Below are positions 32,144-33,498 of a stretch of DNA of 64,000 nt, in pieces. This stretch comes from Thomasclavelia spiroformis DSM 1552. Its GTDB lineage: Bacteria > Bacillota_I > Bacilli_A > Erysipelotrichales > Coprobacillaceae. Every line of letters starts with the position of its first letter. Position 1 is the first letter of the stretch. A program made the position numbers and the translations under genes. Location of the stretch: positions 2,243,596 through 2,307,595 of the forward strand of contig NZ_CP102275.1 of assembly GCF_025149465.1 (NCBI RefSeq), in the 5' to 3' direction. The notes under the pieces were generated by a model, which was not told the origin of the DNA, made no database searches, and saw nothing but the letters and a program-made list of their open reading frames with translations.

Positions 32144-32486
32144 CCTATCACCCCTTCACGCCATATTTTAGCACAATCATAATCTATATTCTAGATAATT
32201 TTAGAAGTAACTATCACAATTATATGTAAGATAAATTATTAAACTCTTTATCTGATTTTTCATTAATAAATTTAACATATTATATTATTATAAATATTGT
32301 GTTTTTTATCAATCAAATATCTCATTTTTATCTAATTTATAATACAACACAAAAAATATTTAAACTAATTCTACGATATATCAATACTATTTTTAATAAA
32401 ATATATCATTTATATACACAGTAATTAAATATAAAAATTTTCATTATATAATATAATTACTCTTTAGACAACAAACAACTATTGTA
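32144..32486. other. Non-coding AT-rich stretch downstream of the small RNA pair
   Basis: No open frame with a ribosome site and no structured element stands out. It must carry the promoter of ispF-gltX. Confidence 0.5.
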
Positions 32487-32565
32487 AAAAAATAAAAGAA
32501 GGCGTGGGGAACACCTTCTTAAATGTATAGGTCATTCTTGGGGAAGAAGGGGGTGACCTATACTC
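32487..32565 (-). ncRNA. Candidate small RNA B: C-rich-loop hairpin plus terminator
   Basis: On the minus strand a -10-like GATAAT (32577-32572) is followed by a 10-bp stem GTATAGGTCA / TGACCTATAC. Its 19-base loop is C-rich, with CCCCC and TTCCCC. A second hairpin (AAGAAG / CTTCTT with an inner GTG/CAC) follows, with TTCCCC in its loop and a T-rich tail. No ORF fits. The layout repeats that of candidate A 160 bases upstream. C-rich loops in Gram-positive small RNAs (RsaE, LhrC, csRNA types) pair with ribosome sites. Predicted from sequence only. Confidence 0.5.
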
Positions 32566-32596
32566 TATTATATTATCTTGTCTTGACGACATGTGT

Positions 32597-32602
32597 TATA
32601 AT
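32597..32602 (+). promoter_or_regulatory. Possible extended -10 promoter on the plus strand
   Basis: TGTTATAAT (32594-32602) is an extended -10 box. A transcript from it would run about 70 bases and end at the bidirectional terminator at 32651-32680, without coding anything. Confidence 0.25.
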
Positions 32603-32648
32603 ATACAAGAAATGTGAACACTTTATGAACTTTTAGAAAAAAATGTAC

Positions 32649-32723
32649 AAAAAAAGAAACAATTGCTTGTTTCTTTTTTTGTGTGTATAGATGATTATAT
32701 GGGAGAGGGGTCATCTATACACA
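32649..32723 (-). ncRNA. Candidate small RNA A: C-rich-loop hairpin plus terminator
   Basis: On the minus strand a -10-like CATAAT (32734-32729) precedes a 13-bp perfect stem (TGTGTATAGATGA / TCATCTATACACA). Its 16-base loop contains CCCCTCTCCC. Then comes a 12-bp hairpin (AAAAAGAAACAA / TTGTTTCTTTTT) with a T7 tail, which can end transcription in both directions. Same architecture as candidate B. The start of the stem coincides with the expected transcription start. Predicted from sequence only. Confidence 0.5.
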
Positions 32724-32739
32724 TTAGTATTATGTCTTT

Positions 32740-33432
32740 TCCACTATACAACTATAATACGGTTATTATTGTACTTGATTTCAATTTATTTGTCAATTAA
32801 TTACAAAATATTTTATATAATTTTCTGATTAAATATAATAATTTACTGAATATTCATGGTTCTATTAACAATATTACACCGCATTATTATCTTATTATTA
32901 ACTAAAAATTATAATAAAAAAGATCAATAAATTCTAAAATATAATAGATTATATTCATAATAATTATACTAAATACTTTCTACTATCACTTATACTCTTA
33001 ATTAAAGTTTTGCTTATATTAAAACGTATTAAGATACTAATTTTGTATTTCTATACAATTACCAAAAGCATATGCATTGTCATTAATTACAACATTAATC
33101 AATTAGTTAAATGACATATCTATCAAAATTAAAATAAATTACTACCTGTAAAGATAATAATATTATGACTATTCATTTAAATATTTCTTAACTTTTTAAA
33201 TGAACTTTTCATCAATATAAATATAACATTATGCTATATTTATACCGTAAGATTTATCATAAAAAATTAATGACTTTGATAGCATAAATATTTTTATTTA
33301 AACTTATTATTAAAACAAGATTCTTTATATAACTAAGATAAAAATATTATTAAATAAAAAAATTTACTATAAAAATAAATACTATATACAAGAAAATACA
33401 AAAGTATGTATTCATGTATAAGAAGAAGAAAC
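32740..33432. other. Non-coding AT-rich region upstream of the small RNAs
   Basis: About 690 bases with no convincing open frame, hairpin with T-tract, or repeat. It lies downstream of the rRNA operon terminator. Confidence 0.5.
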
Positions 33433-33462
33433 AAAAAAAGATACCGGAGAAGGTACCGGTAT
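33433..33462 (-). terminator. Terminator of the rRNA operon
   Basis: On the minus strand ATACCGG / CCGGTAT with an 8-base loop followed by seven T residues, about 35 bases after 5S rRNA. Confidence 0.85.
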
Positions 33463-33498
33463 ATGATGAAGAATATATGATCCCAAAATAAAAAAAGA

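Follow-up and report, generated by a model that had tools for sequence, protein, structure and literature searches.

The streptococcal csRNAs are several related small RNAs per genome that belong to the CiaRH regulon and are thus controlled by one response regulator. They end in terminators and carry C-rich regions directed against Shine-Dalgarno (SD) sequences (PMC3091779). Their promoters have a CiaR direct repeat with an 11-nt period in the -35 position, ten nucleotides before the -10 box, and the RNAs can pair with translation starts (PMC3091779), among them that of comC (PMC4507080). The LhrC RNAs of Listeria (LhrC1-5, LisRK regulon) are likewise multicopy. Their UCCC motifs, situated in a hairpin loop, a single-stranded stretch and the terminator loop, bind GGGAG at the SD of lapB (PMC4132741). 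RsaE/RoxS and other Gram-positive small RNAs with UCCC motifs also have a C-rich loop that is thought to contact SD sequences.

Two units of this kind are found in the window, the whole stretch of 64,000 nucleotides of the Thomasclavelia spiroformis DSM 1552 genome that was analysed. They share with the csRNAs the occurrence of several related, terminator-ended RNAs per genome under what appears to be one response regulator, the direct repeat of 11-nt period in the -35 position of unit B with the -10 box ten nucleotides on, and the C-rich putative anti-SD regions. The genome of the window (G000) has unit B, one RNA of L067 type, one of L064 type and the relQ gene under one box. This box, GTTCAY-N5-RTTCAY, differs from the TTTAAG-N5-TTTAAG of CiaR, so that the repeat GTTCATAAAGTGTTCAC resembles the CiaR repeat in its spacing logic but not in sequence. 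Furthermore, the C-rich motif of the type-1 RNAs described here lies in a stem-loop, whereas that of the csRNAs lies between two stem-loops; the bacterial class is different; and a conserved anti-AUG placement is not established here. The features in common with LhrC1-5 are the multiple copies and the UCCC-type motifs in the hairpin loop and the terminator loop, but the promoter box is different and unit A has one C-rich loop only.

No Rfam family, LhrC and RsaE/RoxS included, matches either unit at the gathering score, and the stem sequences are not similar to those of RsaE/RoxS. The Rfam matches obtained at a low threshold are at chance level and to unrelated families. The sequence-only reading, which knew of no named RNA family covering the units, is thus upheld on this point. 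The likeness that it saw to csRNAs, LhrC and RsaE is borne out by C-rich loops that are of the csRNA/LhrC type and hardly vary, but these RNAs are functional parallels and not relatives. The units are of a known functional kind and lie outside the csRNA and LhrC families.

Structure and conservation of the two units

In each unit an intrinsic terminator follows a C-rich hairpin, and both units are on the minus strand, as are all window features given below. Unit A is a predicted 112-nt small RNA (32649-32760), the 5' end of which is set by promoter spacing and the 3' end by the terminator. Its predicted fold starts with a 7-bp 5' helix, GTATTAT...ATAATAC (32727-32760), and continues with the C-rich hairpin (32685-32720), with the loop CCCCTCTCCC at 32710-32701, and a predicted terminator (32647-32682). 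The C-run occurs in one loop only. Unit B, a predicted 107-nt small RNA (32486-32592), is composed of a 5' mini-hairpin, TGTCgtcaaGACA, a C-rich hairpin (32525-32563) with the loop CCCCCTTCTTCCCC at 32553-32540, and a terminator (32496-32520) with CCCCA in its loop, which is seen both by terminator prediction and in the alignment of relatives. Both the hairpin loop and the terminator loop of unit B hold C-runs, and its single-stranded stretch holds none. The C-rich hairpins match the covariance model with 49.6 bits (A) and 43.9 bits (B). The 5' ends, near 32760 and 32592, are presumed starts derived from promoter spacing. Transcripts of about 75-80 nt with the C-rich hairpin at the transcription start had been expected; the predicted lengths are instead about 112 and 107 nt, and each RNA has an additional 5' hairpin before the C-rich one.

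The predicted RNAs fold with z-scores of -7.6 (A) and -6.6 (B), none of 200 shuffles being equally good, and two terminators are detected in the interval as against 0.1 expected from shuffles. The two hairpin-and-terminator units with C-rich loops proposed for this strand are thus present. The interval that holds them has no open reading frame of 50 or more amino acids. Judged by their sequence, units A and B are small RNA genes, and they are probably separate, trans-acting and duplicates of each other.

The units are adjacent and in the same order in all nine Thomasclavelia genomes, that of the window included, the pair being split over two contigs in one draft. In the window the pair is situated between an rRNA operon, ending in the 5S rRNA gene, and ispF, which is 84-89% identical to the ispF of Thomasclavelia species. 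The DNA between 5S rRNA and ispF (32200-33480) is about 1.3 kb long, AT-rich and gene-free. The location next to the 5S rRNA gene might imply that the units merely terminate or attenuate transcription that reads through from the rRNA operon and have no function of their own. This is very improbable, because in the relatives examined the pair is located elsewhere, downstream of a gene for a membrane protein or an alcohol dehydrogenase and upstream of pyrG, with its sequence kept, and because both units possess a conserved promoter of their own and an additional C-rich hairpin. The retention of sequence in changed surroundings shows that the pair does not belong to an rRNA or ispF transcript. 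The absence of the relatives' neighbours (the membrane gene and pyrG) beside the window pair suggests a rearrangement at the rRNA operon. One further match to the units, in genome G014, was judged to be a chance terminator-like stretch.

Upon aligning 25 distinct C-rich hairpins from several genera, two-sided changes were found at nine of the ten stem pairs, and 93.9% of the cells were paired, compared to 20-45% in slid controls; the hairpins had been chosen for pairing, which favours the percentage paired and not the two-sided changes. The covariation score is 0.487, as against 0.197 for shuffled and at most 0.126 for slid alignments. The earlier statement that the stems differ yet stay paired through compensating changes is therefore confirmed. 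Within the genus alone there are two two-sided pairs in the A hairpin and one in the B hairpin. The loops CCCCTCTCCC and CCCCCTTCTTCCCC are nearly invariant. Similarly, the CCCCA loop of the unit B terminator is constant while its stem changes (AAGAAGGTG/CGCCTTCTT, AAGAGAGTG/CACTCTC, AAGGAAAC/GTTTCC); MAFFT misaligns this stem, so that its pairing is undercounted in the genus alignment. The pairs of the unit A 5' helix and the stem of the unit B mini-hairpin are invariant in the genus, and are thus conserved without covariation support there. Selection for RNA structure in both units is supported by these alignments.

Promoters and the family-wide box

The unit A promoter (32768-32796) has the -35 box TTGACA at 32796-32791 and the -10 box TACAAT at 32773-32768, separated by a 17-nt spacer, with 11 of 12 consensus matches. 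TTGACA-N17-TACAAT is the sole strong promoter of this unit, and there is no GTTCA box. Its position is kept in the relatives within the genus, where it reads TTGACA or TTGACT-N17-TATATT or CATAAT. The CATAAT previously taken for the -10 box of unit A lies about 25-30 nt inside the predicted transcript, in the 3' arm of the 7-bp helix.

The unit B promoter (32598-32630) is formed by the direct repeat GTTCATAAAGTGTTCAC at 32630-32614 and the -10 box TATTAT at 32603-32598. The two GTTCA half-sites, whose 11-base period had been pointed out in the sequence-only reading, are found at 32630-32615 (GTTCA-N6-GTTCA). TATTAT follows 11 nt past the second of them, and the presumed start is just 5' of the mini-hairpin. 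The GATAAT that had been proposed as the -10 box is about 15 nt inside the predicted RNA. Depending on the species, the -10 box is TATTAT, TATCAT, TATATT, TAGTAT or TACTAT, and the direct repeat is kept in the genus alignments, which were built without using the pattern. An 11-bp-period direct repeat over the -35 region at a fixed distance from the -10 box is the OmpR-type arrangement, and the -35 position of unit B is best read as a direct-repeat activator site.

Each of the 41 family genomes scanned has one to five sites of the box GTTCA-N6-RTTCAY-N10-TAnnnT, and the reversed-pattern control is near zero. The -10 sequence TAnnnT formed part of this search pattern; when half-site pairs in the genus loci were found without requiring it, 11 out of 11 had TAnnnT at the identical spacing. 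The repeat upstream of unit B, suggested earlier to be a response-regulator site, is indeed part of a response-regulator-like promoter box common to more than 100 family sites. There are 105 distinct sites, 66 of which open terminator-ended C-rich RNAs and 33 mRNAs. The C-rich RNAs begin within about 10 nt of the box; the start codons of the mRNA type are mostly 20-50 nt downstream. TCCC is present in the first 130 nt at 64 of the 66 sRNA-type and one of the 33 mRNA-type sites, compared to a background of 17.6%; the sRNA class is partly defined by CCC, and the fair count is 65 of 72 non-mRNA sites. Units A and B are best regarded as belonging to a larger, family-wide set of C-rich RNAs sharing one box.

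Four exact box sites are present in the genome of the window, and all four recur across the genus. In addition to unit B, they precede a third RNA (L067, G000:C1:350300), with the hairpin ATGATGGATG-TTTCCCTCTCCCATAAATTG-CATCCATCAT, a fourth RNA (L064, G000:C1:184934), in which CCCCTCCCTTT separates a 5' hairpin from the terminator, and a gene for a relQ-type small alarmone synthetase (L066; RelA_SpoT domain in Pfam; box at G000:C1:2502112-2502144). The relQ gene starts 36 nt past a perfect copy of the box and has orthologs at L161, L164, L168, L170, L173 and L177. Its box may constitute a link between the regulator and (p)ppGpp. The same relQ arrangement is seen in another genus (L126, L128 and L129). 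Other members of the mRNA type encode DUF5685, DUF454 and DUF4230 proteins, an N-acetylmuramoyl-alanine amidase and a small zinc-ribbon membrane protein; the boxed genes of this type lean towards the cell envelope. The DUF5685 gene is conserved behind the box in two genera (L080, L081, L111, L117, L118, L099, L100, L142 and L144).

The covariance-model search of relatives that had been called for detects the C-rich hairpin in 28 of the 41 family genomes, with three units in the genome of the window. Another genus has one homologous unit on its own at L019, which shares the box and the CCCCTCTCCC loop and is located after an ABC-transporter gene pair. Tandem arrangements are also seen apart from the pair in the window. 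Genus g25 (L110, L113, L114 and L116) has tandem pairs of C-rich units, the second copy lacking an exact box. A tandem duplication of the third RNA type, with one box per copy, is found in one Thomasclavelia genome (L167, G006:C1:723871 and 724061), and L084 (G010) is a tandem of two boxed RNAs.

Candidate regulators

The genome of the window encodes 15 OmpR-type DNA-binding domains. Among the regulators compared, reciprocal orthologs in five other genomes of the family are found for PhoB, L186 and L188 only. Orthologs of L186 (G000:C1:1629467-1630135), 72-100% identical, are present in 42 of 43 family genomes (in two pieces in one of them), the exception being a genome of 69% completeness. 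The closest L186-like regulators of the sister family have less than 50% identity, and the box is rare there, being present in 15 of 75 genomes. Two of these boxes lie directly before genes of L186-like regulators. The recognition helix DRTLDTHIKLLRK of these two autoregulated proteins is unlike that of L188, DRVVDDTLRRLRKK, and closer to that of L186, DRTVDVHIKRIRE. L186 is thus the candidate core regulator, and the chances that it reads the box appear about even; L188 is the next candidate.

The HssR repeat of Staphylococcus aureus is GTTCATATT-N2-GTTCATATT, which has the same half-site and period as the box here, and L186 may be similar to HssR. The promoters of hrtAB carry the HssR direct repeat (PMC6305404); among the sites found here, none is before an hrtAB operon.

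It is somewhat less probable that the box is read by L188, encoded beside glmM in the order cdaR-glmM-RR-HK, or by PhoB. Both are core regulators with orthologs in six of the six genomes compared, conservation does not separate L186 from L188, and the relQ and amidase targets would be compatible with an envelope kinase. However, nothing specific points to L188, its recognition helix being further from DRTLDTHIKLLRK than that of L186. The pstS promoter has a repeat different from the box, TTTACA-N5-TTAACA-N5-AATACA, which is of the Bacillus Pho type and makes PhoB unlikely.

No convincing autoregulatory box was found before the 15 OmpR-type regulators of the window's genome, and there is none before the L186 or L188 operon. 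Among the family sites retrieved, tblastn against the regulators of the window's genome likewise revealed no regulator gene at a distance of up to about 1.5 kb from a box. NCBIfam has no name for L186. Against the NCBIfam model of the VanR-ABDEGLN family, another regulator, L179 (G000:C1:1982456-1982680), which has an adjacent kinase, scores over the cut-off. The boxes of the sister family are situated before regulator-kinase genes, HtrA-like proteases and VTC-domain proteins (L223, L224, L236, L238, L226, L231 and L232), with few if any small RNAs at the boxed sites. As the sister-family box is mostly before protein genes, it may serve several regulators.

Mode of action and possible targets

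From the conservation, the structures and the shared box we infer that both units are transcribed, and it is likely that they belong to a response-regulator-controlled set of SD-blocking small RNAs, encoded by separate duplicate genes of which A would be constitutive. Unit A would be made from an ordinary sigma-A promoter. In the promoter of unit B, the place of the -35 region would be taken by a direct repeat that an OmpR-family response regulator binds, and in the window's genome the same box would drive relQ and at least two other C-rich RNAs. Firing of the sensor kinase, for which an envelope or general stress is the most likely signal, would lead the regulator to activate the RNAs. Their exposed C-rich loops, in unit B also the terminator loop, would then pair with G-rich SD regions and block ribosome binding. 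Blocking of the SD is the most likely mode of action because the anatomy of the RNAs matches that of LhrC and the csRNAs.

The almost invariant loops on freely varying stems, and the recurrence of one motif in several RNAs, as in known protein-titrating small RNAs, are also what would be expected if the RNAs, though real and regulated, were chiefly a sponge for an RNA-binding protein preferring C-rich loops. This is improbable, as the loop motifs differ by type (CCCCTCTCCC, CCCCCTTCTTCCCC and CTCCCTTT) and are always complementary to SD cores resembling GGGAG or GGAGG, and as the best-studied C-rich small RNAs of Gram-positive bacteria pair with SDs (PMC4132741).

The generic target pattern GGGAG-N4-11-ATG is too frequent to be useful. 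GGGAGRGG before ATG in the genus yields six listed loci with LytTR or LytTR-like regulators, two of these being one orthologous gene; the genus genes with this motif are otherwise dissimilar. In a partly circular test on three genomes of the genus, GGGAG was found in 6 of 25 LytTR genes vs 4 of 121 (p 0.002), and GGGAGRG in 5 of 25 vs 0 of 121. The LytTR enrichment in four other genera is not significant (4 of 30 vs 7 of 146, p 0.095). LytTR-regulator mRNAs may be targets, as a weak lead. The unusual ribosome sites of these genes, GGGAGAGG or GGGAGAG (L265 at G000:C1:794744, L295, L258, L274 and L251/L261), are complementary to the RNA loops, which the other genera do not reproduce.

No paper joining Erysipelotrichales, small RNAs and response regulators was found among those searched, and the regulon of boxed C-rich RNAs is apparently undescribed. 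It is conceivable, although we regard it as doubtful, that across this family of Erysipelotrichia one core two-component system acts mainly by way of a changing set of C-rich small RNAs, which account for about two thirds of its promoters. In Thomasclavelia this set would have as its counterpart a constitutive sister RNA with the same type of loop, and the RNAs may damp regulators of agr/LytTR-type cell-cell signalling, in parallel to the action of csRNAs on comC. A tandem pair in which one copy would be constitutive and the other regulated, and whose loops are related, offers a clean natural comparison for why look-alike small RNAs are kept. If the proposed regulon is real, the box would be simple enough to predict the whole of it in any genome of the family, and the combination of a response regulator with multicopy C-rich anti-SD RNAs, known in Streptococcus and Listeria, would also occur, separately, in a major gut-bacterial family.
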